Shown: one piece after another, positions 2,318-60,707 of the stretch
Numbering within the stretch: the stretch's first letter is position 1
Layout of the letters: each line of letters opens with the position of its first letter
NCBI GenBank assembly: GCA_958299035.1
Contig: CATQJL010000112.1
Location: 42,598,833 to 42,662,832, forward strand
Origin: Cylicocyclus nassatus
Lineage: Eukaryota > Nematoda > Chromadorea > Rhabditida > Strongylidae
DNA length: 64,000 bases
Reading direction: 5' to 3'
Made by a program: the position numbers and the translations under genes
Notes under the pieces: generated by a model
The model's database searches: none
The model's input: only the letters and a program-made list of their open reading frames with translations
Told to the model about the DNA's origin: nothing

Positions 2318-2345
2318 ACCTCAAACATAGGTAATGAATCAACCC
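2318..2345 (-). other. SL-like 22-25 nt segment (weak)
   Basis: The minus strand reads GGTTGATTCATTACCTATG followed by TTTGAG and GTAC. This resembles a nematode SL exon next to a 5' splice site. I see no stem I partner, no Sm-type site within about 100 nt and no CTCAGA ends around it, unlike the copies at 10.3, 12.5 and 45.2 kb. It could be a diverged SL copy or chance. Confidence 0.2.
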
Positions 2346-4112: not shown

Positions 4113-4810
4113 TGATCTAGCAGATTATTTCTATGTTCAACACTTTTCGGACCTTGCTACACACGGTGAATCATCGGATCCATATGATGTTCTTGGATCC
4201 CAGTATATGTATTATTGAAATCTAACCAAGTCAATCCATATATTCAAGTCGAAGCTTCCGATACCACCCCTTGGGCCAGCTACATTGGTGTAGACTAGAT
4301 AATTCAACAATAGTCACAATAGCGGCGATGCGAACATCGCCAGCGACGTCGCACGGCTTTTCGGCTAGATTCTTGGAGAAGACTTGCGCTTGTGGTAACA
4401 GTAAGACTTTCGTGCGTCTTAGGCAGATTCAGCTTCCATCTGAGGCATATTAATCGCTCATGTCTTTTTAAAGTGTATTGGTCACTTTTTCGTGCAAAAT
4501 TTCAAAGCATTGATTTTGGCTGAAACTTTTAAGAAGGTTATTTGACATTTTACGAATTCGTACTTATCACGAGAATTAAGGCATTCCCCCTGGGTAAAGC
4601 TGAAGAAAAGGTTTTTGCGCGCGACCTAGATTCCCAAAACGTGTTAACCTTTTCGGACCCTTTTGGCAATTGCCACCATCAATTCAGAGACAAGCTGTAC
4701 TGCCGCAAGAAAACCATTTGACTACTCAGAGCTATAAAACGCTTCATATAGCCTTTGCCTTCCAAATGCAGCTTTGAACTGCTTGTTCATTTGTTTTCTT
4801 GTCCGCAATA
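4113..4810. other. No recognisable gene or element
   Basis: AT-rich sequence with no convincing exon or repeat boundary. Confidence 0.4.
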
Positions 4811-6218
4811 TAAAGTGCGGTTCATATTTATACGAACACCCAAAATTTTGTAAGTTTTCGGACTTTTTGGGAGAAACTTAAAAAGCCGTTGGTACCACGC
4901 GAAAGAACGCAGCCGAAAACGGTATATGATCCATAAGAATGGAAATCGATGTCAACTGTAGGAGTGTTTTTGCGCCTAATGCGAATTTTTAGCGGCTCAT
5001 AATTATACGAACACCTCAAACAAAAGTCCATTTTTCATTCAAGATTGCAATCATTTGAGTCCAAATTTTTTGTGGGGTTACAGTAAAAAAGTCTGACATA
5101 TCTGCCCTGCACTGAACCGAGTGCAGTTCAAAACGATTACCGTTACTTTTTTCAGAAGGCTCTAAATGCTTTTGGAATGATTGCGCTCCAAAAACATCCG
5201 TTCTTCTGTGGTTTACGCGCTCTAAGTAGCTTCTATAAAAGCTACGAGATAGAATAAGCTCTTACGATAGGTATTTTGTTTGACGCTTGGAAAATCTTTG
5301 CGTTTTCGTGCCGTTTTTCAACCAAGTTCCAACCTTACCACAGAGTTGGCACGATTTCGAGCCTCAAAACTCAGCTTCTCTCTTGCGCAAACATTTGATA
5401 TGAAGCAGCTGCATTGTTTGCATGATCATGTTTCTGTGCCAAAGTTTTTGGGTTTTTTCTAGAACTGATCTTGCGGCTATGGAGCTACAAACCAAATAAA
5501 GGTGTGATTGCAATAGTAAAAACAGTATTTTTTGGTGAAATGACGTCTGCGTGACCAAAACAAACGCTCAACGCTGCTGATTTTTTCTAACCAAATATAA
5601 AGTCTTGTGAACTTCTACACACTTTATGATTACTTCATTGTACGGCTTCAGAAGCTGAGTTTTGAGGCTCGAAATCGTGCCAACTCTGTGGTAAGGTTGG
5701 AACTTGGTTGAAAAACGGCACGAAAACGCAAAGATTTTCCAAGCGTCAAACAAAATACCTATCGAAAGAGCTTATTCTATCTCGTAGCTTTGGTAGAAGC
5801 TACTTAGAGCGCGTAAACCACAGAAGAACGGATGTTTTTGGAGCGCAATCATTCCAAAAGCATTTGGAGCCTTCTGAAAAAAGTAACGGTAATCGTTTTG
5901 AACTGCACTGGGTTCAGTGTATGGCAGATATGTCAGACTTTGTTACTGTAATTCCACAAAAAATTTGGACTCAAATGATTGCAATCTTGAATGAAAAATA
6001 GACCTTTGTTTGAGGTGTTCGTATAATTAAGAACCGTTAAAAATTCGCATTTGGCGCAAAAACACTCCTACAGTTGGCATCGATTTCCATTCTTATGGAT
6101 CATATACCGTTTTCGGCTGTGTTCTATCGCGTGGTACCAACGGCTTTTTGAATTTCTCCCAAAAAGTCCAAAAACTTACGAAATTTTGGGTGTTCGTATA
6201 ATTATGAACCGCACTTTA
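4811..6218. mobile_element. 1.4-kb foldback element with long arms, TA-flanked
   Basis: Ends read TAAAGTGCGGTTCATA and its inverse, followed inward by TTATACGAACACCCAAAATT on both arms, with TA on each outer side. Arms of roughly 570 bp (4811-5385 and 5645-6218) are near-identical inverted copies around a spacer of about 260 bp. The TA flank suggests Tc1/mariner-type mobilisation. It has no coding capacity. Confidence 0.8.
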
Positions 6219-6239
6219 TATCGTCCTCTCCATAACTCG

Positions 6240-9592: not shown

Positions 9593-9882
9593 CTCAGATA
9601 ATCGCCGGGGGCAGGCGGGCACCGGAAAAATAGATGGCTGATTTCTTGCACCCCGCTCGCGGATTTTTCAGAAAGCAATCACGACTTTTTGGGACGCCGC
9701 TTGCTGATTTCTCGATTCCTCAGAGATTCAGCAATATGTCTGCAAAAGACAAGAGCGAAAAAGGATTCAACAGGCGGTCTCTCAAAATCTCGCTGTACAT
9801 TTTCCTGAAATTTGCGAGCGGAATGCGAAATTCCAGCAACGCCCATTTTCCGGCGCCCGCCTGCCCCCGGCGTTTGTCTGAG
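9593..9882. mobile_element. Short CTCAGA element (290 bp), no SL gene
   Basis: Inverted ends CTCAGATAATCGCCGGGG / CCCCCGGCGTTTGTCTGAG are flanked by TA on both sides (9591-9592, 9883-9884). Length and sequence match the 290-bp copy at 43483-43772. The interior differs from the long, SL-carrying members apart from the terminal 35 bp or so. It is a MITE of the same family. Confidence 0.85.
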
Positions 9883-10213
9883 TAGTTGTCAGAGCGCAGC
9901 TTGCTAGCAACGCTGTTTGAAGATGAGAATATCAACAGTGCTTGCAGCAGCAGTTTTTTCTTCACTTCTTCTAGATTGGTCAGAGTGTTGCCGAGGCATT
10001 CAAATACTGTTGCACGGCGAAACTGAATTTTTTGCAATTCGTGCTCAGACAATCGCCGGGCGCAGGCGGCCATGCGATTTATGGGCGGGCGGGCACCGGA
10101 AAAATAGTTCGCTGATTTCTTGCGGTCCGCTTGCAGATTTTTGGAAGAATTTTAGCGAAATTTCAGACTAATGCCTAGAGAACAATCGCAGTTGCCTTAT
10201 AGATTAGCTGCGG

Positions 10214-10335
10214 CGCGCGGACTTTCCGCGAGAATATGCAAAATTTTCGGAGTCCGCGCGGTTCTTTGTGGAGGACCGCACAGCCGTAGGTACTTTCCGC
10301 TGAAAGAAGGTACCTCAAACTTGAGTAATTAAACC
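10214..10335 (-). ncRNA. Spliced-leader (SL1-like) RNA, copy 1
   Basis: SL RNAs donate their 5' exon to mRNAs by trans-splicing as Sm-class snRNPs. Exon 10314-10335 begins GGTTTAATTACTCAAG and ends TTTGAG, followed directly by the GT of the splice site. It differs from canonical nematode SL1, as I recall it, by one base (ACTCAAG for ACCCAAG). Downstream on the minus strand, stem I pairs AGGTAC/GTACCT across the splice site. Stem II is largely GTGCGGT/ACCGCGC, the Sm-type site is AAAATTTTG (about 10239-10247), and the 3' hairpin is CGCGGA-AAG-TCCGCG (10216-10230). Length is about 122 nt. Whether it is transcribed is not shown. Confidence 0.8.
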
Positions 10336-10392
10336 ACCTCTATGTGACACCTCTGCGACATAGAGTCTCATCTTTTCTCGGCGTACGTCCGA
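10336..10392 (-). promoter_or_regulatory. Conserved block upstream of the SL exon
   Basis: The 50-55 bases upstream of all four SL copies share TTCGG(G/A)CGTACGCCGAG and then GAGACTCTATGTG(N)CAGAGGTGTCA. Position and conservation fit a snRNA-type proximal sequence element. The assignment is by position only. Confidence 0.5.
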
Positions 10393-10631
10393 AACTGCTT
10401 AAAAAGAGTCCGAGCGCCTGCTGAAAGTTCGACCAGCATTTGCTGAAAGAGATTATTTGACGAGCGCCTGCAGAAAATTCTGTGTTGCTGCCCGCTGGCA
10501 GGATATTAGACAGTAAAGGAAGTATCGCTCGCTGAAGGTTTGGCCACGCCCCAAAAATCTGCGGTCCGCAAACGTGCGCTTGCAGAAAAGCGCAGTTTGC
10601 GGACCGCCTGCCCCCGGCGATTATCTGAGTG

Positions 10632-11255: not shown

Positions 11256-12443
11256 AAGCAATCACATCTCAAACTTTCCGACATATCTGGCTAAAGCCGA
11301 TCCAATCATAATCAGCCCCCTAGTATCCCCTATACCAACTCCTAGCTCAAATTTTCCAAAAATTGCTGAAATCAATAAAATAGATTTCAGTTTTAATCAG
11401 CACCCTCACTTACCCTCTTGCATCCCCTTAGCAGAGTATAGATAAAATTGGCTGGAGCTAAAAACTAAAAATGAGAAACATTGCAACTTGGTGTAAGCAC
11501 CTAACGACCTGTTCGGATTCATAGCGCTAGGTGTGCGATCTTTAGAATCAATAAGGTCGCCACATATGTACTTAAATTCCACAAATGCTACGATACATTG
11601 CCTGTTCATCGGAGACTTTCGTCTTGTGTGGTATTAGTTAGTCGTGGACGAAGGCATGTGGTTTCCTCCGCGAAGCGAGCACGAATGCCCCTATAGCCCC
11701 GGGCATACTGCAGGCATTTCAGTGGCGACGTGGTATGGCAATACTCAAATTGTCCAAAACCTATTCTGAAAGTACAGAATGCAGGGCATTTATCTTTTTA
11801 GTATGTTGTACACTTGGTAAGCTGCCATTACATCTGAAGGCATCTCGTAACTGGCAAATCGCGTACGGCGATCTAAACCGTCTGATCCTGCACTACAACT
11901 GCGATGTCCTTTACTCACTATACACCTATTCGCAAAAAACTCCAAGGTAACGAATAGGCAGTTTTGCAATAATTTATGCAAGCAAGAGCGCTCACTAGTG
12001 TGGGCTTCGCGTACCGCAAGCATGAGCAATGCAAAGAAAGAAGAACAGCCATTTCAGCTCAGTTTGAACTCAGAACATGAGCTTGAATTTGATATCTTCT
12101 TTGCTGATTTGGTGCCAGTAGCAGTGCGAACAATCTCATTGATCGAAAAAAACATCAACTGAAATCCCATATGATTTTTTTACTGTCGCAAGCAGTCGGA
12201 AGAATGCGACTCTCCACTCAGATAATCGCCGGGGGCAGGCGGTCCGCAAACTCGCGCTTTTCTGCAGGCGGTCAGCAAAATTTTGGGGCGTGGCCAAACC
12301 TTCAGCGGGCGGCACTTCCTTTACGGTCGCATATTCTGCCAGAGGGCAGCAATACAGCATTTTTTGCAAGCGCTCGGCAAATAATTTCTTTCAGCGAGCG
12401 CTGGCCAAACTTTCAGCAAGCGCTCGGACTCTTTTAAGGCATT

Positions 12444-12497
12444 TTCGGGCGTACGTCGAGCGCAAGTAAGACTCTGTGTGGCAGAGGTGTCACCGTT
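12444..12497 (+). promoter_or_regulatory. Conserved block upstream of the SL exon
   Basis: TTCGGGCGTACGTCGAGCGC followed by AGACTCTGTGTGGCAGAGGT ends just before the SL exon. It is the counterpart of the block at 10336-10392 and a candidate proximal element for snRNA-type transcription. Confidence 0.5.
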
Positions 12498-12619
12498 GGT
12501 TTAATTACTCAAGTTTGAGGTACTTTCTCTCAGCGGAAAGTACCTGGGAGTTGCGCGGTCCTCCCAAAGGACCGTGCGGCCCTCGAAATTTTTGCATATT
12601 TTCGCGGAAAGTCCGCGAG
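12498..12619 (+). ncRNA. Spliced-leader (SL1-like) RNA, copy 2, best preserved
   Basis: Exon 12498-12519 (22 nt) begins GGTTTAATTACTCAAG and ends GAG before GT at 12520. Stem I is a perfect 10-bp hairpin, AGGTACTTTC (12518-12527) with GAAAGTACCT (12536-12545), burying the 5' splice site. Stem II pairs GCGCGGTCCT (12553-12562) with AGGACCGTGC (12568-12577), 10 bp with one G-U. An Sm-type site AAATTTTTG lies at 12586-12594. The 3' hairpin is TCGCGGA-AAG-TCCGCGA (12602-12618). This order of exon, stem I, stem II, Sm site and stem III is the standard nematode SL RNA plan. It looks functional by structure; expression is unproven. Confidence 0.88.
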
Positions 12620-12916
12620 AATGCGGCCACTGCGCCGCAGCTAATCCATAAAGAAACCGCGATTGTTCTTCAAGCATTCTTCTTTGATTTCGCCAACTTT
12701 CTTCCAAATTTCTGCAAGCGGGCCGCAAAAAATCAACGAACTATTTTTCCGGTGCGCGCTTGCTCAAAATTCGCATGGCCGCCTGCCCCCGGGGTTATCT
12801 GAGCATACAGTTCAAAGGTATACCGGCTGCAAAAGATGCATTACCGAGTTTTGCGAAAAAAAACGCGACGAAGTGAGCTTGATACTCAGCAGTTGGCTCT
12901 GCAGCAAAGTCGAATA

Positions 12917-19845: not shown

Positions 19846-20391
19846 ATGGTAGCCACTTTTTTAGGGGTTATACTGTGTTATAATCCTGTTTCAAAAAATG
19901 CTTTTCTACATTGGATAGCTTTGAATTTTTCAGTACTTGATTCTAGTTGTATTGCAAGCGGTGAAACTGCACCAGCTAAACTGATTCAATGGCCTTCAAA
20001 AGGAGTGGAAATTGTTGAAAAATGCGATGGTCTGAGCCTTCACAGACTTCCGAATTTGCAAAGAAAATTGGAGCGCAATTTTCAGGATGGTTGCATTGAG
20101 CGAAAAAAAGCATTCCATGAAGTTCGAGACAACACTAATCATCTTGAAAAAGACTCACTCGAAAATTTGAAAGAGAAAAGAGCGCAGCAGGAAGAGCTGA
20201 AAGCTTCTAACGCTGATAGAAAATGTTGTTGCTTGTTTCCAACTCCATCTATAAAAATCCTGTGTTTTATTCTGACCGCTATCAGCGATCCCTGGTTGTG
20301 GAGCGCGACACCTAGCGCTTTGCTCTTTCTATTAGGTGGGTCCGAAAGTTTTGTCAGTTTTTTTAATCCATCGGCAAACACGCTAGAATGA
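19846..20391 (+). CDS. Longest open frame in the window (181 codons), doubtful
   Basis: The frame is open from ATG 19846 to 20391 and has a charged Lys/Glu-rich middle (KEKRAQQEELKASNADRK) that could form a short coiled coil. Its last 20 codons run into the mariner-type palindrome at 20332, so the natural 3' end was either replaced by the insertion or the frame is accidental. No family is recognised and no splice or trans-splice site was chosen. I include it only because of its length. Confidence 0.2.
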   Translation: MVATFLGVILCYNPVSKNAFLHWIALNFSVLDSSCIASGETAPAKLIQWPSKGVEIVEKCDGLSLHRLPNLQRKLERNFQDGCIERKKAFHEVRDNTNHLEKDSLENLKEKRAQQEELKASNADRKCCCLFPTPSIKILCFILTAISDPWLWSATPSALLFLLGGSESFVSFFNPSANTLE

Positions 20392-21351
20392 AGATAAACA
20401 AACGCTCTAAAATGTATCCAATGCAAAATTTCTTGCTCTTCCCAGCTGCTAAACTCCCATTGTGTTTCGTTGCGAGAGCGACGAGATATTTGCTGAAAAT
20501 TACAACCACTCGTATTTACCATGTCCAAATTTCGCTAATTTCAAAATTTTCGTATGAGACTTTCGGAGGAGCCCTAATGACCAGCAGATAGGGCAAACTT
20601 TTTGCCAACTTAAGCAACTTTTTCTTTTTTCCAGCTGCTTTCTCAGATTTTTGCTAAATAATTTTCTAAAAGTCTTGTGTTTTGGAAAAACCGCACGACC
20701 TGTTATTGCATCAAACACTGCAAAACTTACAGAAAACTGAGTTTTCAACACGCAACTATTACTACCGCTACCATTACAAAGTAAATGAGCGATTTTAGCT
20801 TGAAATTATGAAAATTTTGAAACACAGGTTACGTCAGTGCGCACTCCTGAAATTGAGAAATATTGCGATTTTCCCCACAAATTTCGCCTATCTCGGCAAA
20901 AAAAGACAAGTGTTAGAAAGAGGAGAAAAGTTTGCATTGAATGGTGACTGAAATGCTTAATATTTTATGTTCTACGAGGTTAAAATATGCTAAATGTAAA
21001 ATTTGGTCACTTCAAAAAATAAATCGCAGAAAATCTGAAAGACAAGCCACAGGGCTACAAAAAATTGTGCAAGTTGGCAAAAGGTTTGTCCTATCTGCTG
21101 GTCATTAGGGCTCCTCCGAAAGTCTCATACAAAAATTTTGAAAATTAGCGAAAGTTGGACATGGTAAAAACGAGTGGTTGTAATTTCCAGCAAATATCTC
21201 GTTACTCTCGCAACGAAACACAATGAAATTTTAGAAGCTGGAAGGAGAAAAAAATTCTGCATTGGATGCATTTTAGAGCGTTTGTTTATCTTCATTCTAG
21301 CGTGTTTGCCGATGGATTGAAAAAACTGACAAAACTTTCAGACCCACCTAA
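20332..21351. mobile_element. Mariner-type foldback (1.0 kb)
   Basis: TTAGGTGGGTCCGAAAGTTT at the left is mirrored at 21332-21351, with TA on both sides. The outer arms of about 295 bp (20332-20626 and about 21058-21351) are near-identical inverted copies around a spacer of about 430 bp. It is non-coding. Confidence 0.85.
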
Positions 21352-21870
21352 TATAACCTGAAATGATATCATGCAAATTCAAGCAGTGCATTCTTCCATT
21401 TTCGAGGCACATCGTGCAGAAATACGTATAATAAGAGGTAAATGAGGAAGCATCCATTCTTTCAAGGTTCCTTCTAACCCTTCTTGCAATTAACAATGGT
21501 TAGTGGGCAGCGAAGTCGAGCCCTCATAAAGAGTTTGATTAAATGGTAGCTGTTTACTTGACAGATAAAACAAGAAAGACACAACTAAACCTCATGTGAG
21601 CAAACCCCTTGGAATCAAATAGCAACTTCTTGAAACTCTGAAAACAGAGAATACAACATGAGATTGAAATTTTAGAGACAACAATTCTGCTATCAGAGCA
21701 AATAGCTCCTTACTTTATCGAACTTGAACAATCTACAAATTGGTACAGGCTACTATACAGTGCTGGACATAATTATAGAGGCACTCTAGAAATCACTGTA
21801 ATTTACGTTGTTCTTGATAAATTTGTTTGAAACTTTGCTGTATAGTGTGCATGTAAGCTTTTCATAAATC

Positions 21871-24560: not shown

Positions 24561-25623
24561 CTCTGTTACAGCTTCTATCACTTTAGTCGTTGATGATGCT
24601 GAATTAAAAACCTCAAGCATCAGTCAGATTCCGTGCCCGCCATACTAGCCAATGGAGAATACTCATAAGCTTTTTAGGGTTAACCATGACGATTCTGTTA
24701 ACCTCAACCATAGGGAACAGATAGCATGACTCAAAGTTAGATGATATTCAGCTTCTGCTTGAAGCGAAAAAAAATCCAGTAGTCTTTGTCGTTCGAATCT
24801 AAAGTCACAAAAGCGCGCTATAAAATATGTAAATAACTGCATTTTAACATATGCGAATGAAAAAAAAAACAACAGAGCTTGCTTTATAAATGCAATCCCA
24901 ATCGCGTTGGACACTCCGTTATATCATGCTTAAACTTGAAGTTTTGGAATTAGCTCAAATTTTGAAGTGAAATTTAAAAAAAAATCGACATGATCTGAGT
25001 TATTAGAAAAAAATTCCGTCAGTTTTCTTCTAACATTCCATCAATGTACCAGTTGACTATACTCATAAATAAAGATATCATCAAATTCTTGTTGTAAAAA
25101 AAAAGACAAATTTACTGATCCTTTGTTTGAAACTTTGATTTTGGCACTGAAAGATAATATTTCAGTCGAGTTGGAAATCTTCAGAACAGCTTCTAACTAA
25201 AACTCCGAAGTCGGGAATACCTTGTTATCACATCCTTCTGCTGTAACAATTTTCCTACAATCCATAGAAGAAATTCTAATATAGTTCTTCAGCTCGAGAA
25301 TAAACCTTAGAATTACAAAAAAATTTTTTTTTGGAATTTACCTTTCTTTCGGCAGGTAGGAAACTAAGAAAAAAAATCTTCAAACTCTAAATTTCAGAAG
25401 TAATCTACAACGTATTTGTATACGTTATAGTCCTCATTTTTTTGCTCCTACTACTCGCACTTGGGAACATGTTTTAAACTTTCTTTTAATAACGGACATC
25501 CTTCAATACGCATTGCAAGAAGTTTTTTTTCTCAATGAAGATAGCTCTGATGCCAATTTGAACTAACTTTTCAATTTCAGTCAAAAAAAATTTTTTTCTC
25601 CCATTTCAAAAAATCTTTTTCTA
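24561..25623. other. LTR-element interior without recognisable coding
   Basis: AT-rich, with many A and T runs. If integrase was here it is beyond recognition by eye. Confidence 0.4.
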
Positions 25624-26567
25624 TTAGGTTGTCAAGAAAATAATGTCCGTTTTTATTTGCTTGCTTTAACAAAGCAACCAGACTGAACCCAACAAAGGGT
25701 AAGGGGTACTGTTCGATAGAGCAAAGCAAGCTCTACAAGATGGCACTCATGTCTTTGCGCCAAGCTCGATCCACGGAGAGTTCGAACTCAAAACCTAAAG
25801 ATTTCCAAATGCCCAAAAAATCGAAAAAATCAGATCTTCGTCCAGATAATTTCCACGGACCTCCCACTCGCTCACATCAATACTATCGATATCAGATATC
25901 CATATGTGCGATTGGCGTATTTTTTCCTTGACTAGAAACTGAGAAAACGAAAATTTCCCTGATTTTCTCAAAGCAATGCTGAGCCGTTTCTGCATATGTA
26001 GTTTTATACTACAAGCCTAGGTAAGCATAACTGTAGGTTTTCAGCCTATTTCGAGCGGTACTTTTCGAGAAATGTCGATTTTAGCACTGAAACTGAAACG
26101 AAAAAATCCGAATTCGTTATTTTTCGAAAACTACCGCTTGGAATGGGCTGAAAATCTACAGTTATACTTACCTAGGCTTATAGTATAGAACCACACTTGC
26201 AGAAACGGCTCAGCATTGCTTTGAGAAAATCAGGGAAATTTTCGTTTTCTCAGTTTCTAGTCAAGGAAAAAATACGCCAATCGCACATATGGATATCAGA
26301 TATCGATAGTATTGATGTGAGCGAGTGGGAGGTCCATAGAAATTATTTGGACGAAGATGATTTTTTTCGATTTTTTGGGCATCTGGAAATTTTTAGATTT
26401 TGAGTTCGAACTCTCAGTGGATCGAGCTTGGCGCAAAGACATGAGCGCCATCTTGTAGAGCTTGCTTTGCTCTATCGAACAGTATCCCTCACCCTTTGTT
26501 GGGTTCAGTCTGGTTGCTTTGTTAAAGCAAGCAAATAAAAACGGACATTATTTTCTTGACAACCTAA
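25624..26567. mobile_element. Near-perfect mariner-type palindrome (944 bp)
   Basis: TTAGGTTGTCAAGAAAATAA at the left is mirrored at 26548-26567, with TA flanks. Almost the whole element is an inverted repeat: the same 45-residue frame appears on opposite strands at 25795-25995 and 26197-26403. The spacer near 26080-26110 is very short. It carries the GCCATCTTGTAGAGCTTGCT block shared with 40413-40862 and 51601-52106. It sits inside the LTR element. Confidence 0.88.
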
Positions 26568-29500
26568 TATGTAGTATTTCACACGATTTGTGGAAACATA
26601 TGCTTACTTTTTGATTATACCACAAGGCTATGCAATTATTGATAAAAATGTGTATATGGCGTTATTCTTCGCTTATATGTGCGGAGAGCAGGACAAGACC
26701 TTTTTATTTTTGTTTTCTAGATTATACAGCTAACATTCAATATGTTCACACAGTAGAAACATGAAGCAGAAATGTTTTCAGAGAACATTTTCGCTGACAG
26801 TTTTGGAACTACAAACGAAATCAGGTTTTCTTGAAAAATTGGAATTCTTTATGGCTTGTGTGAAGGAAAAAAGTGGACCATTACATCCATACTTCTTATT
26901 GCTAGTATTCTAGACTCATTACCACACGAATTAATCCAAAAAAAATTTTTTTTGCAGGTTTGATCATGTCATACCAGATGACAAGGTATTAATTTATCAC
27001 ACCAAATTTTCCGCAATACGAAAACACCATTTCAAACTCAGAAATCAAATCCTATTCCTACACGGGATTCTTTGTTAAACTCCAGCTGGACATTTATTCT
27101 GGTGTTTAAGCGGATCGATTTTCTTCTGAAGAAGAAAGCTCTTAGCATATTTAAAAAATAACCAAAAAAAGGTTTTTCTGAAGATATTGTGAACGAATCG
27201 ATCATCAAATCATTTGAAGTGTCCAGACTTCACATCTAGTACCTTCAAAATGAAAAATCAAACATTTACTCAATTCTTTATTTAATCCACCTATGAAAAT
27301 ATCATACTGAATTACTCAGAGAAAAGCGATGTCCCTTCATTGCAATTTTCACAAATTTTCACCAATTACATGAATTATTTTGATCAGAAAGAATTCTTGC
27401 CTATAGACACTGAATCTCACAAACAATTTACGACAGTGGAAATCTCAAGTTGAGATTAGGTCCTCTTCGTAGGAGCCACAAATTTTTTTTCAAATTATAA
27501 ACTACTCTCGGAGTTTTCTTCAACATCATTCTTTTGCTAGAGCATTCGTAACTCTAAAGAACACTTGACAGCGGTCGCACATAAAAAAAGACCTCTGGAG
27601 TAAAGAACCGATCCCTAAACTTTTTACATTTTTTCAACATTGTGAAAAAAAATTTTTTTTGAGGATGAAGCGATAAGTGAAATTAGCCCACTAAAACAAG
27701 AACAAACTTATTACAAATCACACTTATAGATGCCTTACAGTATGAATTATCTGAAAATTCCAAGGCTAATAATTTAACCAAAAAAATTTTAAGCGAGATG
27801 TCATTGTCAAAATAATTGATTTTTGAGTACTTTCACTTTAAAAGCTCAGTTCAAATTCACCTCATTTTACATCTTAAACAAACCACCAGTCCATACCAGT
27901 TTATGAATTCACACCTTTTTGCAGATCTTACTCTTGGGGTGTGTGATCAACAGCATAATGAAGCTCGAAATCACTATTAGAGCTTTAGCTACCCTTGAGT
28001 TCAATGACAGAAACAAATAGCTCGGCCAAGCTTCAATTTCTACATGTCAATTCAGTAGAAAGTGTTTTTAGGTCATGTTCTGGATGAGCATTTTTGAAAG
28101 ATTCGGAATCGTTTCCATAACATATTTTTTTTTCTGCCGATTGTGTACAAGTCTGGAAAAAAAACAAATTCTTCTACAAAATGCACTCATTGTTTGGACT
28201 GACCCTTGAATTCAACTACCCAAAAGAACACAAAAAGCTTTCTCTAGGTGATCCAAATTGGCTCATTACCTGAGCTCTTCTGAAGTATATCCTGCTAACG
28301 GAATACACACCAAATAAAGACGCTCGCAAATTGGTTGTAAAACACGTATCGACTGCAATAGTTTTTTTTGAAAACCGCGCTCATGACTTAGATTCGAAAT
28401 AAGGGACATAATATTGGTAGAACAATGGAAATAGCAGTTCCTCCAGTTTTGTGCAGTTGCACAAACTAAGTCTGCATTACGTTGAAGAAACGTAGAACTA
28501 CAGCGCAATATTCTCAGAGGATATTGCTTGTAGCTGAGTGAAGATTGTTTTCAGAGGACAATTCTTTTGCAATCAAAACGGCGTTTGAACATATGGGGAT
28601 ATCCAGATAGATGTTTTGCTTAGAAGCAATGACCGCATTTTTTTCTGAAAAATGTTTAGCCGAAGCTGACAATAAGCAATGAAGGCATGGTTTTTTAATT
28701 TCAGTCTGATATTCATTCTTCGAAATGATTTAGAACGCTCTACGTCACCCAGTCCTCATGTTTCTCCTAGAAAAGAACGGTAATGATTCCTTTACAGATT
28801 TCAGCAGAATTCAGGAACTATCACTCTATATTTCTATATTGGATTTGGACGTTGAAGAAACATAGACAGCCTTACACATTGCATGTTAGTAGTGAATTAA
28901 CACACATGATGTTGGGATCATTTCCGCTGAAGTTTTCATACTTATAACCCATAAGCTACATATTGTAGTTTTTGCAGCGGAAGCGTTCTGGTAGTGAATT
29001 TCTATGCTGACACGATTGTTGTGTTTTTTCAAGCTGTATAGTTCGATCTGCATTTCCGTTTTGTAAATGTCGGTTATCGGTTAATGTTTACCAAACCTAA
29101 TTTCGAAAAAAAATGCTAAAAAAAGGAAAACATCAGAAGATAAACGATATCATGTTTTTTTACTTATGATGGTAGTCTTGAAACCAGTTGCAAAACCACA
29201 AGACAATTTTTCAACGCAATCAGTTCAAAAAAAAACTGATTAACAGCGTTTCTTTTTGCACTCGCAAGATTTTTCCGATGTGAGTTTGTTTACAAATATC
29301 TTGCCGCACCGCTGCGTTTACCTATAAGCATGAAATTCTTTGAATCGGCAATTCAAAGAATGAAAAAAATGAAAAAAATATTTCGTATTAGGCAGCGAAA
29401 AAAAAATCCCCATTTTTCTAACACTCAAAATTTACCAACATGTTGAATTAAACACAGTTTGTTGTGCTTAATTGAGCATATCTTCCTCTTGGTTATGTAA

Positions 29501-38590: not shown

Positions 38591-39310
38591 GTGGATGCCT
38601 ACATTCAATTTTTAATAAAAAAAAGCGGTGCTTTCCAGTAAGGAAAGAGTTTGTGACCAGGCTGACGCTTTGACGTCTAAATGCGGCCAAGATCGCGCTG
38701 GTGGACTGCGTGACGCTGGTGGGCTGCGTTGCCGAGTTTTTATGCTCGGATATGCAACGCCGTTTGGCTTATCAGGGTGGCATTTGACAAACTTCGTTAT
38801 GGAGTGCCTTAAGTTGAGCAATTCTCACGGTCTATTTTACAGATGTTGATCCCATCTAAGCTCCAAAATCAACTTTGTGGCAGGATGATGCGTTACATTG
38901 TATTATAAACTGTCTAAAGATCAATGCCATTTTAATTAAAGAAACACAGTCGGTCAAAGATCTGATTGGGAAAGAAAATGAATCGCAGAACGCTGGGTTT
39001 GGACGAACCAAGTCTTCGTCAACGAAAACAAGATACAGCTACGCTTGCCTTCTGGTCTGCACTTTACCTAAACGCAGAAAGTTGCCGCATAACAGACCGC
39101 TCCAGCCATTCACGGAATATCCTTTAAAAATGTACGAAGACGATAAATCCTCGCGCTGACCTCCGTTACTTCTCACATATGCATTATACAGATATAATCA
39201 GAAAATCAAAAATTAGTTATACCACTAATTAAGTTATCATACAATTTGTCCAGTACAAAGCAGTATAAATGCCATCCAATAATTCTTCTACTCGGTGTCA
39301 GTTCCATATA
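38591..39310. other. No recognisable gene
   Basis: The frame at 38875-39159 (94 codons, Lys/Ser/Thr-rich) has no family I recognise and no clear acceptor before its ATG. Confidence 0.35.
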
Positions 39311-40162
39311 TTAGGTTGGCTAGAAAGTTCTTGCGTAATTCAAACAAAATTCAATAACTTTTCAATGACTAAACCTAAATTCACATTCTTGTTCTCTAAA
39401 AATATTAGAAGGCCTGCGCTCCAAGATGGATGTTTAAGCGCAAGATTTCATGAGCTAGTTCCCGAGAACGAAGCTCTCAAATATGGGACTTCAAAATTTG
39501 CAATTTTGAGTGTGGTGCCAGAAAATCGCAGAGTGTCGCTAGCTAGCCGAAAAAATCTGTAAAAATTACTTACACTGCAGAAGTCCATAAGTTACTTTGG
39601 AAGGCTTTGATCTTGCACGGTGAAGCAAAAACAAAAAATTCGTGAAATAGTCATTTTGCGGAAAAAATCCACTCATTACCGCAGTTTTTCGGCAAAAACT
39701 ATTTTTCACACTCCAAAAAACGTCGCAAAGTTCTAAATAGGCAACATGTCTCATTTCTGGTTGCAAACTGTGTTTTTGTGGAAAAATTACATCGATAAGG
39801 GGATCTATCCTGTAAAATGACAATTTCCACAAATTTTTTGTTTTCGCATTCCCATGCGAGTTTGAAGCCTGCTAAAATAATGTATGGGCTTTTGCAGTAT
39901 AAGTAATTTTTGCAGATTTTTTTCGGCTAGCTAGCGACACTCTGCGATTTTCTGGCACCAAACTCAAAATTGCAAATTTTGAAGTCCCATATTTGAGAGC
40001 TTCGTTCTCGGAAACTAGCTCATGAAATCTTGCGCTTAAACATCCTTCTTGGAGCGCGGGCCTTCTAATATTTTTGGAAAACAAGCTTGTGAATTCAGGT
40101 TTAGTCATTGGAAAGTTATTGAATTTTGTTTGAATTACGCAAGAACTTTCTAGCCAACCTAA
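39311..40162. mobile_element. Mariner-type foldback (852 bp)
   Basis: TTAGGTTGGCTAGAAAGTTC is mirrored at 40143-40162 with TA flanks. Arms of about 285 bp are near-identical inverted copies around a spacer of about 270 bp. Confidence 0.88.
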
Positions 40163-40412
40163 TAGTTCTGTGTACATATGTGCTTGCGTGTTTGACACAA
40201 TAGAGCATTCCCTCCAAAAGACGACGATTTCGACGTTGTTTTGTGATTAAACACAAACACAATCACATTTATTACTCGCTTGTACAACGCTTCATGATTC
40301 CTTCCATTTTGTTATATCGACACTTGTTTGGAAAGAGATCACACGTAAGCGAAAATCACCATTGCGTTCAATATAAACAGAGTTTAGTGCGAGTATTACA
40401 TATGACAATATA

Positions 40413-43482: not shown

Positions 43483-43772
43483 GTCAGACAATCGCCGGGG
43501 GCAGGCGGGCACCGGAAAATATGCGTTGCTGAAATTTCGCATCCCGCTCGCAAATTCCAGGAAAATAGTTAGCGAATTTTTGAGCAACCGCCTGTCGAAT
43601 CTTTTTTCGCTCTTATCTTCTGCAGATATATTGCTGAATCTCTGAGGAATCGAGAATTCAGCAAGCGACGTTCCGAAAAGTCTTGATTGCCTCTCAAAAA
43701 ATCCGCGAGCGGGATTCGCGAAATCAGCCATCTATTTTTCCGGTGCCCGCCTGCCCCCGGCGATTGTCTGAG
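43483..43772. mobile_element. Short CTCAGA element (290 bp), no SL gene
   Basis: The ends GTCAGACAATCGCCGGGG and CCCCGGCGATTGTCTGAG are inverted (one mismatch at the first base), flanked by AG on both sides. It is the same length as 9593-9882 and matches it in inverse orientation. Confidence 0.85.
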
Positions 43773-44874: not shown

Positions 44875-45095
44875 CTCAGATAATCGCCGGGGCAGGCTGT
44901 CCGCAAAAACGCTGCTTTTCTGCAGGCGGCCAGCAGAATTCTGGGCGTGGCCCTTCAGCGGACGGCACTTCCTTTACGGTGGCATATTCCGCCAGCGGGC
45001 AGCAATACAGCATTTTTTGCAAGCGATCGGCAAATAATTTCTGTCAGCGAGCGCTGGCTAAACTTTCAGCAAGCGCTCGGATTTTTTTAAGCAGT

Positions 45096-45149
45096 TTCGG
45101 GCGTACGCCGAAAAAAGATGAGACTCTATGTGACAGAGGTGTCATCGAT
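45096..45149 (+). promoter_or_regulatory. Conserved block upstream of the SL exon
   Basis: TTTCGGGCGTACGCCGAAAA and GAGACTCTATGTGACAGAGG are the counterparts of the blocks at 12444 and 10336. Confidence 0.5.
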
Positions 45150-45270
45150 GGTTTAATTACTCAAGTTTAGGGTACCTTCTTTCACCGGAGGGTACCCTGA
45201 GCAGTGCGCCCTTCACAAAGGACCGTGCGGCCCACAACAATTTTGCATAAGATAAGGATAAGTCCGCGAG
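45150..45270 (+). ncRNA. Spliced-leader (SL1-like) RNA, copy 3
   Basis: Exon 45150-45171 begins GGTTTAATTACTCAAG and ends TTTAGG, against TTTGAG in the other copies, with GT at 45172. Stem I reads AGGGTACC with GGTACCCT, so the A-U pair of copy 2 has become G-C: a compensatory change. Stem II (GTGCGC...) is weaker, with AGGACCGTGCGG retained on its 3' side. The Sm-type site is CAATTTTGC (about 45237-45245). The 5' half of the 3' hairpin is damaged (ATAAGGATAAGTCCGCG), so this copy may be failing. Confidence 0.7.
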
Positions 45271-45457
45271 AGTGCGGCCACTAAGCCGCTACTTATCCAT
45301 AGAAAAACCGCGATAGCTCTCCGAACGTTCGTCTAAAAATCGGCCAAAATTATTCCAAATTTCTGCAAGCGGAGCGCAAGAAATTAGCAAACTATTTCTG
45401 CGGTGCCCGCTTGCTCAAAATTCGCATGACCGCCTACCCCCGGCGATTATCTGAGCA

Positions 45458-53787: not shown

Positions 53788-54337
53788 CTTTTCACTACAC
53801 AACCTCCATCCTCAACGTCGACAAAAGTGAGTGTGTAAGGCTTGTGCGAATCTGGAATACCCACTGCTTCGGGTGGTATGTAATAAATGATGATAGTCGC
53901 TGATGCCTCTTTGCTTTCCACCTGAAAATTACGCCAATTTCTTTGCTTTTGAGACTCCTACTCCAAACAAAGTTGTTTAAAGATGACGGCGAAAAAAGCC
54001 CAAAAAACAACGATTTTCCATGGGAACTTGCAAACAATGGATGGAGGTTTCATAGACCTTATGATTTTTTATTGTTTGTACACCAAAAAATACTCACATA
54101 CTCTGAATAACCTAAGAAGGGATCGTTCTGCAAATAAACACCGTATGCTTGAGTCTTCACAGATGAAGTCAAAGTCATACATTCTTTGCTGAGAAACATG
54201 AAGCTTCTCAAAGTTGGATACGGAAGATTGCGTAGAATCTGGACTTTCAAATGAGCTGGCAGATTGCTCCAGTAAATGAAGCTGCTCTCAAATACATCAC
54301 TGTCAAAGTTCAAAGCAAAATTAGCATCTTCTTCCAT
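53788..54337 (-). CDS. F-box protein, 5' exons (3' end not found)
   Basis: Exon 1 (54337-54098, 80 codons) starts with an ATG four bases after a TTTGCAG acceptor, as for a trans-spliced or internal exon. Residues 22-60 contain YWSNLPAHLKVQILRNLP then LRSFMFLSKEC, the F-box pattern that binds Skp1 in SCF ubiquitin ligases. Intron 1 (54097-53922, 176 bp) runs GTGAGT to ATTTTCAG. Exon 2 (53921-53788) stays in frame for 44 codons and includes YTLTFVDVEDGGCVVKR, reminiscent of the substrate-side region of nematode F-box proteins. It ends at AAAAG/GTGATC. The foldback at 52908-53707 lies in the next intron. Nematode F-box proteins are usually much longer, so either 3' exons lie left of the foldback or the gene is truncated. 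Confidence 0.7.
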
Positions 54338-54350
54338 AGACCTGCAAAGT
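54338..54350 (-). promoter_or_regulatory. Splice acceptor before the F-box start codon
   Basis: The minus strand reads ACTTTGCAG then GTCT and ATG. The 4-nt leader fits SL trans-splicing, although an upstream cis exon cannot be excluded. Confidence 0.5.
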
Positions 54351-54360
54351 ATTGATGGTC

Positions 54361-55253: not shown

Positions 55254-55829
55254 CTCAGATAATTGCCCGGGGCAGGCGGTCATGCGATTTATGGACAAGC
55301 AGGTACCGAAAAAATAGCTCGCTGATTTCTTGCGGGCCGCTTGCAGATATTCGGAAGAATCTTGGTTAAATTCTGGAGGAATGCTTGAGGCACAACTGCG
55401 GCTTTTTCATAGATTAGTTGTGGCCCATGGCCGCATTCTCACGGACATTCCGCGAAAACATGCGAAATTATTGGTGGCCGCATGGCCATCTGTGAGGGAC
55501 AGCATAGCCCGTAGGTACCTTTCGCCGAGGGAAAGTGCCCCAAAGTCGGTAATTGAAACTCGGTGACATCTCTGCCATGTAGCGTCTCACTTTTGCTCGG
55601 CGTACGGCTCAAACTGCGTAAAAAGTGTTCGGGCGCTTACTGAAAAGACCAGCACGCGTAGAAAGAAACTATTTGACGACCACTCGCAAAAAATTTTATA
55701 TTGCTGCCCGCTGGCAGAACATGCGACAGCAAAGAGCACCGCTAGTTGCAAATTTGGCCACGCCCCAAAATTCTGCTGGCCCCTGCAAGAAAGCGCGAGT
55801 TTGATCGCCTGCCCCGGCGATTGTCTGAG
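55254..55829 (-). mobile_element. Long CTCAGA element with a degenerate SL gene
   Basis: CTCAGATAATTGCCCGGGG and CCCCGGCGATTGTCTGAG are inverted ends, flanked by TG (55252-55253, 55830-55831). Same body as the other long copies, more diverged. Confidence 0.85.
55438..55562 (-). pseudogene. Degenerate SL RNA, copy 4
   Basis: The minus strand reads GTTTCAATTACCGACTTTGG where the SL exon lies in other copies, and the splice GT has become GC. The 3' hairpin is imperfect (TTCGCGGAATGTCCGTGAG), and the Sm-type site has become AATAATTTCG. The upstream conserved block is still recognisable. Unlikely to be a functional trans-splicing donor. Confidence 0.65.
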
Positions 55830-56863: not shown

Positions 56864-57049
56864 CTAAACATGTTGCGGATGACAGCAAGTTTGACAGCTA
56901 GATGCGCGGATTTGCGTGCAAAAATGATGTTATATTTTTGTTATTTTCTTCTTGATAACATTTTTATCGAGCGTTAGTCAGCATCAGTTGCGTGTATCAC
57001 ATACAGTGCGGGACATACAATACCGCTCATAACTCGTCAAAAAAGTCGC

Positions 57050-57175
57050 CGGACTGCTGCGCACTCCGCCACACTCCGCCGCAGTGCGCGAGAGTGCGAC
57101 GCAGTCCGCTAGAGTGCGGCGGAGTGCGCCAGAGTGCGGCATAGTGTGCAACACTCCACTAGAGTCCGTCGGAAT
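57050..57175. repeat. GAGTGCGGC degenerate tandem repeat, left arm
   Basis: About eleven units of 10-12 bp around GAGTGCG(G/A)CG(G/C) or its complement. The unit is itself partly palindromic. It is mirrored at 60108-60235. Confidence 0.7.
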
Positions 57176-57262
57176 GATCGTCAATTTGGCCACATCTCGC
57201 TTCAGAATGGACGAATTCTGAATCCGAGGACACCGTTCGATTCAGCTCGGCGAGACGCATCA

Positions 57263-57538
57263 TCTTGTATATGAAGCTGAACGTCTGTTTGTCTGTTTGT
57301 CTGTACGTATGTTCCGAATAGAAAATTCCATTTCTGAACCGATCCGGACTAAACTTGGCACACATACACTTCGGGCCCCGGCGGGTGTCATAGGCTACTT
57401 TTCGTCATCGAGCGATATCGATTTTATCGATTTTTATCGATTTTTTGCAGAGTTTACCTACGGGGCCGAGAGTTGGCACAGGGGGTAAGTGAGCATTGGG
57501 ATTCCGAATACAATATTAGTTTGCAGAATTATCGATTA
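57263..57538 (+). mobile_element. Helitron 5' fragment, left arm
   Basis: Starts TCTTGTATATGAAGCTGAAC and continues with GTCTGTTTGTC, GATCCGGACTAAACTTGGCA and ATCGATTTTTATCGAT, as in the Helitrons at 22283 and 46255. It lacks the CTAG end. An inverted twin is at 59740-60014. Confidence 0.75.
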
Positions 57539-58869
57539 TTATTTTGGTTGAATTCAGTGTGCTGATAACAGTATTACCATTGATCTGTCGCTGATGACAC
57601 ATAGACAGTATACTACAGGAGTATGGTAGAGAGCCACTCTGATCGAATTTGTTCTAAGATCTGCGCAAGATCACAATACCGCCCACAGAATGTCAAAATT
57701 CCGTGGACTTCGCGGAATTCCGGGATTTTCGCCAGAGTGCGCGATAATCCGGGAAGTTCGCGACATTTCAGGATCCGCGAAACCATGCGAATCACGCAGA
57801 GTACGCAACGCCATAACTTCCTTCGAAATGAATATATTCCAAATCCAGAAGCAGCATTGTGTTCAGATCGTCGAGGCAAATATTTTGATATACGATATGC
57901 TCTCGATATTCCATTTCCAGTTTTTTCAAAATTTTTCTGTGGAGGTCCTTTCGCAAGGATGTAACGCAGCGTCTGTGTAACATAAAAGATTCCAGTAAGC
58001 ACTGTTCGATAGTACTGTCCTTGTAGGTTATCGTGCGTTCAAGAGTAGCTGCAGACTGTCTTCCAAAAGAGATAGAAGCGTTGGTGAATTTTGGAAAAAT
58101 GACGCGTTTCTACAATACGTTACGTTTCTACGAAATTCCACCGTGAGTGCTTGTATGACACTCGCATTGCGGATATTATGTTCGCTTCTCCCAATTACTC
58201 CACTGTATTGAATATGGTGCTTGCATGTGCTTCAGCAATTGAATATCAAAGCTGTTTTGTGGCTAGAGCTCAAACCACCAAATCTAACACAATAAGATTC
58301 ATTAAGAATGTGAAAAGATTTGAACATCGTGTTGTACAAGCACTCATGGTGGAATTTCAACGAAATATGTGATCTTTACATTATGGGCAAAATTCATGTG
58401 AACGTGTTTTCGTACTCTCGTAACTCGGCGAATTTTATAGACTGGAGCCTGAGTCATGCGCCATTCGATAGCACATCTCCTAGTAACTTTGACTAGAAAA
58501 GCAACCAGGCAGGTTTTTTGACAGATACGTGAGAGGCGGAGGCGAAGTTACGAGCTTTCGTAACTTCGCCTCCGTAATCCGTCGCAGTTATCTCACCATA
58601 TCTCTGCAAAAAGACCCTATACTTGACAGAGAACAGATTTTCATAAGCAGCGTGTTCAAAAACCTCCTCTATGAGCGGCGTTTCTTTACAATTCAAGATC
58701 ATCAACATTTTGACCAAAACCCACCGGCCAGCTTCAGAGCGTCAGACAAGAAGAAATGAAATCACCCGACATCTCGAAAAACTTGTTCATAAGGATTATC
58801 CGACCTGGTGATACAAAAATCAAATCCGCTTAGCAAGATAGCCTCGTATGAATTTGGGACAACGAGATT

Positions 58870-59160
58870 TTTTTTACGATTTACCAACCTTTCTACCTCC
58901 ATTGGAAAGATGCCTGTGACTACTTTTTAGCGCTACGTAATCTACAGAAAAATTGCTATCGAAAGATCCTTGCTGGAGTCTACAAGGGGCAACGTGCGTT
59001 GCTTTACACCTTCGCGAAAAGGCGTCTACAGAAAGATTTGAGAATATTGAAATCGGAATATCAAGGATATGCTGTATAAAAGACTTACCTTGATGAACTG
59101 AGCACAGAACTTTCTTCGGATTCAGAATATGTTCATTCCGAAGGAAGTTACGGCGAGTAG
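58870..59160 (+). repeat. Diverged tandem copy of arm sequence in the spacer
   Basis: The order ACCAACCTTTCTACCTCC, CTATCGAAAGATCCTTGCTG, TTACACCTTCGCGAAAAG and TTCATTCCGAAGGAAGTTAC repeats with about 70% identity by eye at 59190-59475. So a unit of about 280 bp was duplicated before the palindrome formed. Confidence 0.6.
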
Positions 59161-59739
59161 AATGTAGAAACGCGTCATTTTTCCAAAATTCACCAACGCT
59201 TCTATCTCTTTTGGAAGACAGTCTGCAGCTACTCTTGAACGCACGATAACCTACAAGGACAGTACTATCGAACAGTGCTTACTGGAATCTTTTATGTTAC
59301 ACAGACACTGCGTTACATCCTTGCGAAAGGACCTCCACAGAAAAATTTCGAAAAAACTGGAAATGGAATATCGAGAGCATATCGTATATCAAAATATTTG
59401 CCTCGACGATCTGAACACAATGCTGCTTCTGGATTTGGAATATATTCATTTCGAAGGAAGTTATGGCGTTGCGTACTCTGCGTGATTCGCATGGTTTCGC
59501 GGATCCTGAAATGTCGCGAACTTCCCGGATTATCGCGCACTCCGGCGAAAATCCCGGAATTCCGCGAAGTCCACGGAATTTTGACATTCTGTGGGCGGTA
59601 TTGTGATCTTGCGCAGATCTTAGAACAAATTCGATCAGAGTGGCTCTCTACCATACTCCTGTAGTATACTGTCTATGTGTCATCAGCGACAGATCAATGG
59701 TAATACTGTTATCAGCACACTGAATTCAACCAAAATAAT

Positions 59740-60014
59740 AATCGATAATTCTGCAAACTAATATTGTATTCGGAATCCCAATGCTCACTTACCCCCTGTG
59801 CCAACTCTCGGCCCCGTAGGTAAACTCTGCAAAAAATCGATAAAAATCGATAAAATCGATATCGCTCGATGACGAAAAGTAGCCTATGACACCCGCCGGG
59901 GCCCGAAGTGTATGTGTGCCAAGTTTAGTCCGGATCGGTTCAGAAATGGAATTTTCTATTCGGAACATACGTACAGACAAACAGACAAACAGACGTTCAG
60001 CTTCATATACAAGA
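59740..60014 (-). mobile_element. Helitron 5' fragment, right arm
   Basis: Inverted twin of 57263-57538, ending at the reverse of the TC terminus at 60013-60014. Confidence 0.75.
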
Positions 60015-60107
60015 TGATGCGTCTCGCCGAGCTGAATCGAACGGTGTCCTCGGATTCAGAATTTCGTCCATTCTGAAGCGAGATATGGCTAAATTGACGA
60101 TCATTTC

Positions 60108-60235
60108 GACGGAATCTAGTGCGCCAGAGTGTGGCACACTCTGCCGCACTCTGGCGCACTCCGCCGCACTCTAGCGGACTGCGTCGCACTCCGACGCACT
60201 GCGGCGGAGTGTGGCGGAGTGCGCCGCAGTCCGGC
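60108..60235. repeat. GAGTGCGGC degenerate tandem repeat, right arm
   Basis: Inverted counterpart of 57050-57175. Unit number and order differ slightly, showing local drift after palindrome formation. Confidence 0.7.
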
Positions 60236-60707
60236 GACTCTTTTGACGAATTATGAGCGATATTGTAATTAGAAAGACACTTGCAAAATCGTCGCAATTT
60301 GCGTCTTGTTGATAAATTTGTACGAAATTTGGCTGTATAGTGCGAGTGTTAGCCTAAGATGACTTCTCAAAACGGCTTCCAATCTCGCTGAGTTTGAACA
60401 GAGAAAAATAGAAAGATTCGAACAAGCCCTTACCGAAAGCTGGACACAATTATAGAGTCACATGGTCTTTTAATCATTATCGCATCCCCTGGCTCCAAAT
60501 ATTTTTATACAGTTACATAATAAAATGTAAAACATTTGCAACATTTGCGACCTGTCATCTTTTGCAAAGAGAAATGATCACTGCATTTTTTGCTTTAAAA
60601 GCGCCAAAAATGGATGTGCTTCAACAAACAGTTGGTTTGAGGAGTTTTCAAGCTCTTGTTTATTTCGGAGATAGTCATGGAATCCAGTGAGCCAATGAGA
60701 TGAGTCA

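Follow-up and report, generated by a model that had tools for sequence, protein, structure and literature searches.

A family of transposons with terminal inverted repeats (TIRs) in the nematode Cylicocyclus nassatus, present in very high copy number, has an SL1-like spliced-leader (SL) RNA gene in its body, and the evidence for this structure is strong. Exon, GT donor, hairpins and Sm-type site form one unit that moves within fixed ends, and about 1,000 exact copies of exon plus donor are scattered over the genome, with every sampled one lying in the element. In our interpretation, a non-autonomous TIR transposon carries an SL1-like RNA gene and makes it mobile, a reading that includes a putative donor role of source copies and to which we assign a probability of about 0.85. 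A non-autonomous TIR element (about 587 bp, TIRs of about 26 bp, target site duplications (TSDs) mostly of 2 bp) would have taken in an SL1-like RNA gene and would move this cargo inside itself, mobilized by a transposase acting in trans. Source copies would make an Sm-class SL RNA able to donate a leader that begins with ACTC, most copies would be decaying passengers, and the bulk SL1 supply of the host would come from separate tandem arrays with the ACCC exon. A previous sequence-only reading had proposed that an SL donor is cargo of a mobile element and that transposition could expand, disperse or diversify SL genes; this is borne out only as far as DNA copies are concerned, donor activity being putative.

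Four SL-carrying elements in the window

The window, that is, the whole stretch of 64,000 nt analysed, corresponds to C112:42598833-42662832 in the genome assembly searched (514,686,895 bases in 369 contigs). It contains the following elements.

12217..12803 (+): E12, full-length SL-carrying TIR element, young subfamily member, CA (2 bp) at either side
12217..12242 (+): left terminal inverted repeat of E12, about 26 bp
12779..12803 (-): right terminal inverted repeat of E12
10044..10629 (-): E10, SL-carrying TIR element with an intact exon at 10314-10335 and a deletion that removes some of the hairpin 3 region and the sequence after it
44875..45455 (+): E44, SL-carrying TIR element, exon at 45150-45171 with 2 substitutions
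55254..55829 (-): E55, SL-carrying TIR element, decayed exon at about 55540-55561
9593..9882 (no strand): CTCAGA-ended element without SL part, TA flanks
43483..43772 (no strand): CTCAGA-type element without SL part, first base changed, AG flanks

The same inverted ends, 2-bp duplications and collinear bodies had been claimed for E12, E10, E44 and E55, and all of these were recovered. In blastn comparisons the four elements are collinear end to end with 72-83% identity across their full length, they have CTCAGA...TCTGAG ends in an inverted repeat of about 26 bp in common, and the 2-bp repeat flanking each of them is CA when read in SL orientation. In the same orientation, CCA precedes the left end and CA follows the right end in 4/4 window copies; as TSDs vary genome-wide, this pattern looks like a target preference or a coincidence. 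The 600-bp flanks of the four elements are mutually unrelated, except for stretches that overlap two adjacent SL-less elements. The left and right flanks of E55 match each other over 52 bp in inverted orientation.

An SL1-like exon had been attributed to each of the four elements, which holds for three of them and is weak for the decayed E55. The exact exon GGTTTAATTACTCAAGTTTGAG is found in E12 (12498-12519, +) and E10 (10314-10335, -), and in three window elements the mismatches to canonical SL1 amount to 1, 1 and 3. No transposase was detected by a Pfam scan among 299 distinct of the 330 window frames of at least 62 amino acids, and a protein search with the longest frame of the element gave no match.

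Layout of the SL cargo

Within E12, the cargo consists of the following parts.

12498..12519 (+): SL1-like exon GGTTTAATTACTCAAGTTTGAG, differing from the host SL1 exon at one position
12520..12521 (+): GT splice donor; the intron opens with GTACTTTC, 8 bases that are identical in the SL1 gene of the C112 host array
12518..12545 (+): predicted hairpin 1, 11 bp, includes the donor site (fold; also in majority sequences)
12546..12583 (+): predicted hairpin 2 (fold)
12587..12594 (+): Sm-type site AATTTTTG, in the unpaired stretch that separates hairpin 2 from hairpin 3, its start 67 nt past the donor
12597..12623 (+): predicted hairpin 3, 12 bp, would close the proposed SL RNA at its 3' end (fold)

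The predicted succession of donor, two hairpins, Sm-type site and terminal hairpin is the layout of an SL RNA. Folding of E12 into the three hairpins gave a z-score of -6.25, with 0/200 shuffles as good, and values of -3.02, -1.80 and -1.45 were obtained for E44, E10 and E55, respectively. Low z-scores along E12 and E44 fall on the SL part, the lowest ones of E10 on its left end (-3.2) and SL part (-3.0), and the lowest of E55 (-3.9) on the end of the SL part and beyond. Old and young copies alike have majority sequences that fold into the same three hairpins. No covariation signal above shuffles emerged from the four window copies: 81.6% of cells were paired versus 81.8% in shuffles (36-48% in slid versions). 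In the minimum-energy fold of E12 the donor is paired with the intron instead of the exon (stem I), and when stem I is aligned to the Rfam model, some pairs are broken, both in the element and in the host gene.

Among Rfam families, SL1 (RF00198) was the top family on E12, matched over its full length but weakly (16.1 bits, E = 1.2) and below the gathering score of 75 bits, and it was absent for E10 and E44 at E <= 10. The gathering score is not diagnostic here because the host SL1 arrays miss it too, reaching 37.5-53.8 of the 75 bits (33.7 for one N-interrupted unit).

The SLIDR motif (PMC7986045) has A(C)T4-6G as Sm site, followed by a terminal hairpin, and a donor spacing of 40-55 is used there for C. 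elegans; the Sm-type site of the element fits this motif, and its spacing of 67 nt exceeds that range. A stricter consensus, purine-AU4-6G-purine, is given elsewhere (PMC6362198), and E12, E44 and E10 depart from it in having C after the G.

Copies of the element across the genome

A genome search with 12217-12803 gave 3,247 first-look candidates, 40 of which were scored. These best-scoring copies (L010-L049), among them the one in the window, were selected for their similarity to E12 and do not sample the family at random. They are full-length matches with 97-99% identity (100% for the own copy) and lie on C1, C90, C112, C223, C305, C316 and C326. Identical 2-bp flanks, made up of 11 different dinucleotides, border 33/40 of them, compared to 14% in a crossed-flank control, and their bodies differ from the consensus by about 1.1% substitution. 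Matching flanks together with a divergence of about 1% indicate that the family moved recently and that this subfamily is young; the family also has older subfamilies. One copy, L032, is nested in an older SL element, and the joined flanks restore the older copy once a 3-bp GTA duplication is removed. This is the one case of an empty pre-insertion site, and its 3-bp duplication indicates that the TSD is mostly, perhaps not always, 2 bp long. An exact exon, the GT and the Sm string are all retained in 34 of the 40 copies, and hairpin 1 in 36.

The 24-mer of ACTC exon and GT donor occurs 1,047 times exactly in the 514.7-Mb genome, and 1,517 occurrences were counted when either base was allowed at position 12; the reversed control gave 0 in both cases. 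From the exact ACTC occurrences, 27 places (7 + 20) were taken in order along C1, a positional sample that is hence selected for an exact exon. All 27 lie inside the TIR element, the 24 bases of exon plus GT align on the consensus exon in each, and identity to the young consensus ranges from 82.6 to 99.7% over the aligned part. One end is absent from the alignment in five copies (L095, L125, L129, L137, L138), and L096 begins at base 3; of the 21 copies with both ends seen, 20 show a 2-bp duplication. Thus, other CTCAGA elements carry the exon as well, and in all aligned copies it lies inside the element boundaries; neither of the two refuting conditions proposed along with the sequence-only reading was borne out.

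Host SL1 genes and dispersed ACCC exons

A genome search with Rfam SL1 yielded 171,898 first-look candidates. Among the 50 that were scored, 37 matched SL1 at E <= 0.001, 35 of them in a tandem array of about 455-bp units at C112:45918876-45935396 and 2 on C224. A second SL1 tandem array starts at C1:30138576 (L099) and extends to at least 30157187; it has 680-bp units with a diverged SL1 intron, and two of these score 37.5 bits with Rfam SL1. The scans of L050, L051 and L099 gave no 5S rRNA match, and neither array had a 5S gene in the stretches covered. The host SL1 exons at L050-L079 and L099 have ACCC, and the arrays are separate from the element. At C224:1901026 (L050), the SL1 gene is closely preceded by a partial SL1 copy, and near it there are repeats roughly 170-200 bp apart that contain AGTTTGAGGTACTTTC and may be another SL-derived array.

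Element and SL1 gene of the C112 array have 30 bases in common with 1 mismatch, a similarity that ends 8 bases into the intron; alignments of the remaining intron with host SL1 are no better than those of shuffles. Since 30 bases are alike and the rest of the intron shows no such similarity, the SL1-like cargo would derive either from an old capture or from capture of another SL gene.

ACCC exons followed by GT also occur dispersed in the genome. The 12 such places fetched (C1, L080-L091) all lie outside the TIR element, with no TIR ends and no match beyond the exon region, and Rfam SL1 gave no match in the 9 of them that were scanned. AATAAA precedes 6/12 of these exons and GATAAA 3 more. Two pairs are closely similar, L083/L084 with 98.8% over 339 bases at a distance of 7.9 kb and L087/L088 with 99.7% over 657 bases at 7.8 kb. 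Judging by this LTR-like spacing, the dispersed class is perhaps an LTR retrotransposon family with an SL exon in its LTR.

Upstream region

SNAPc motifs are described upstream of nematode snRNA genes (PMC6436959). The element has one promoter candidate.

12452..12458 (+): TACGTCG, candidate core of an snRNA-type promoter, suggestive only, at -46; motif picked post hoc

For comparison, 141 bases were taken from each of 20 host U2 genes (of 46 listed), giving 19 distinct upstream regions, among which a stretch around -58 to -36 is conserved. The motif TACG[ACT]CG was picked after the sequences had been seen. Its position is -46 in the consensus of the element and -45 in the C112 SL1 gene; 6/20 U2 regions have it at -44 or -45, and it is missing from the C1-array unit. 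A weight matrix derived from the 19 distinct U2 regions does not single out the upstream site of the element: the best register of the element consensus scores about 0, which 1.2% of window positions equal, and scores of up to 7.9 occur elsewhere in the element. The same matrix gave only 3.3 and 4.5 on the host SL1 arrays. The similarity between the upstream regions of element and host SL1 was reached by 101/5000 shuffles and by 9/852 window stretches.

Decay, constraint and alternative explanations

An SL RNA gene that was captured once might have been amplified as inert sequence, with no copy transcribed or trans-spliced, and we give even odds to such a silent cargo. It would agree with structures that are weakened in 3/4 window copies, with the lack of a clear match to the proximal sequence element (PSE) and with decay within subfamilies, where exon, SL intron and body change alike. 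Among the best 40 copies, exon (6/880 cells changed) and SL intron (55/4,160) do not differ from the body (135/12,480; p = 0.31 and p = 0.21, respectively), and the upstream 98 bases are more changed (64/3,920; p = 0.007). Similarly, in the younger positional copies the intron is changed about as often as the body (49/1,135 versus 155/3,972; p = 0.55), the upstream region being less changed (19/717). In 14 copies of less than 90% identity, selected for the exact exon, intron and body have decayed equally from the majority of these copies (6.1% versus 6.8%), and in 19 old-copy pieces chosen without regard to the exon, the three older window copies included, such decay amounts to 8.3% for exon, 11.0% for intron and 9.1% for body. 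No purifying selection on individual copies was found; within subfamilies, copies decay at about body rate. The upstream 60 bases of old copies are even more changed than the body (167/885 in positional copies below 92% identity), which likewise speaks for silence.

Against silence stand differences between subfamilies, with p-values that are optimistic because copies share ancestry. In the positional copies below 92% identity the intron is less changed versus the young consensus than the body, 125/1,402 versus 664/4,806 (p = 6e-7, for cells that are not independent). For the 14 exact-exon-selected copies, majority and young consensus differ at 4/101 SL-intron sites versus 41/352 body sites (p = 0.02), and at 11/60 upstream and 1/52 TIR sites. 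In the 19 exon-unselected pieces the exon is spared, 20/241 versus 477/3,344 in the body (p = 0.009), but the intron is not (166/1,268; p = 0.32); here the majority differs at 0/22 exon, 6/103 intron and 32/352 body sites (p = 0.42 for intron versus body). After one-sided stem changes, pairing was kept in 61/95 cases versus 39% expected under a simple model, with inherited changes counted repeatedly among the cases. As judged from these alignments, the pattern fits neutral decay after insertion, with mixed hints that source copies may have been under constraint. We put forward only tentatively the idea of a selfish trans-splicing donor: functional SL RNA would be made by source copies, and its ACTC leader would end up on host mRNAs. 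In that case, the SL RNA would be kept intact in the source lineage as it helps host or element, and the transposon would have become an additional SL gene system, mobile and coexisting with the arrays.

Other origins appear very improbable. If the exon were a fossil from a reverse-transcribed trans-spliced mRNA or a retrotransposon RNA, and no SL RNA gene, it would have a counterpart in the dispersed ACCC exons, which are of another kind, lie outside the TIR element in all 12 cases and include two LTR-like pairs. However, the element has donor, host intron start, Sm-type site and hairpins downstream of its exon. As a trans-spliced RNA would have lost the donor and the downstream parts, this origin is largely refuted; it was rejected for the ACTC class and kept as possible for the dispersed ACCC class. 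Scarcely any weight is given to a chance resemblance between an SL gene and a hairpin-rich miniature inverted-repeat transposable element (MITE): there are many palindromic elements within the window, but 30 bases are in common with a host SL1 gene at 1 mismatch, the SL part of E12 and E44 has low fold z-scores, and the best canonical SL1 match had at least 5 mismatches in 60/60 first-order Markov versions of the window. It is just as improbable that ordinary SL genes were hit by transposons or spread by segmental duplication. Some copies do seem to be duplicates of one insertion, since L092 and L093 have flanks in common, as do L014 and L017 among the best 40. Yet the exon has a fixed position in elements of about 587 bp and the 2-bp flanks vary between copies, and these fixed boundaries and varied TSDs rule out that explanation for the family.

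Comparison with known systems

The mobile SL1-like RNA gene resembles nematode SL1 RNA genes (RF00198; the host arrays on C112 and C1) in its 22-nt exon, GT donor, Sm-type site and terminal hairpin, and the C112-array gene also in its intron start GTACTTTC. It differs from the host genes in its ACTC exon, in a longer intron with strong hairpins that include the donor, in an Sm site that lies 67 nt from the donor and has C after G, and in the dispersal of its copies within a transposon, host genes being arranged in tandem arrays. With MITEs, the element has in common its short length, the lack of detected coding capacity, TIRs, TSDs, high copy number and nested insertion; unlike them, it has 2-bp TSDs of varied sequence and carries a cellular RNA gene. 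Tas of Ascaris is a nematode LTR retrotransposon that contains the SL1 exon. Such retrotransposons are alike in having an SL exon within a mobile element, and a similar-looking class is present in this genome, but that dispersed Tas-like class has the canonical ACCC exon. Cassandra elements are plant LTR retroelements that carry 5S rRNA genes transcribed by Pol III; these, too, are mobile elements with an essential small RNA gene, in their case a Pol III gene in an LTR retroelement of plants.

A thin and partial literature search retrieved no description of an SL RNA gene within a TIR element. The exon pattern had 0 matches in the genome_contigs and viral_contigs collections. Nine matches to a TIR 18-mer were obtained in bacterial or viral contigs, and neither a second TIR nor an exon with up to 4 mismatches was seen in the sequence available around them.

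The common view of SL RNA genes is one of small gene sets, often confined to arrays. In this genome, a transposon has spread about 1,000 copies that have exact exon and donor, a variant leader and an intron resembling that of an SL RNA. If even some of them are active, transposition can rewire SL repertoires. The one-base leader difference, ACTC ...ATTACTCAAGTTTGAG versus ACCC ...ATTACCCAAGTTTGAG, makes donor use readable in ordinary RNA-seq. Furthermore, genome-based counts of SL genes in such nematodes could be misled by copies of the element.

Other features of the window

A weak SL-like stretch with 5 mismatches at 2320-2341 (-) is followed by GTACTTTTTCTT, and no part of the element was detected around it by blastn. 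Long inverted repeats with 90-97% complementarity are located at 4808-6221, 25622-26569, 39309-40164 and 20327-21356, and Rfam miRNA matches below the gathering score (25958-26234) fall inside one of them. A foldback at 57016-60267 has 901-bp arms that are 100% complementary and outer arms of 141 bp. An F-box-like frame at 54062-54358 (-) makes a strongylid host most likely: of its three matches, the two named proteins are from Strongylus vulgaris (73% identity) and Necator americanus (61%).
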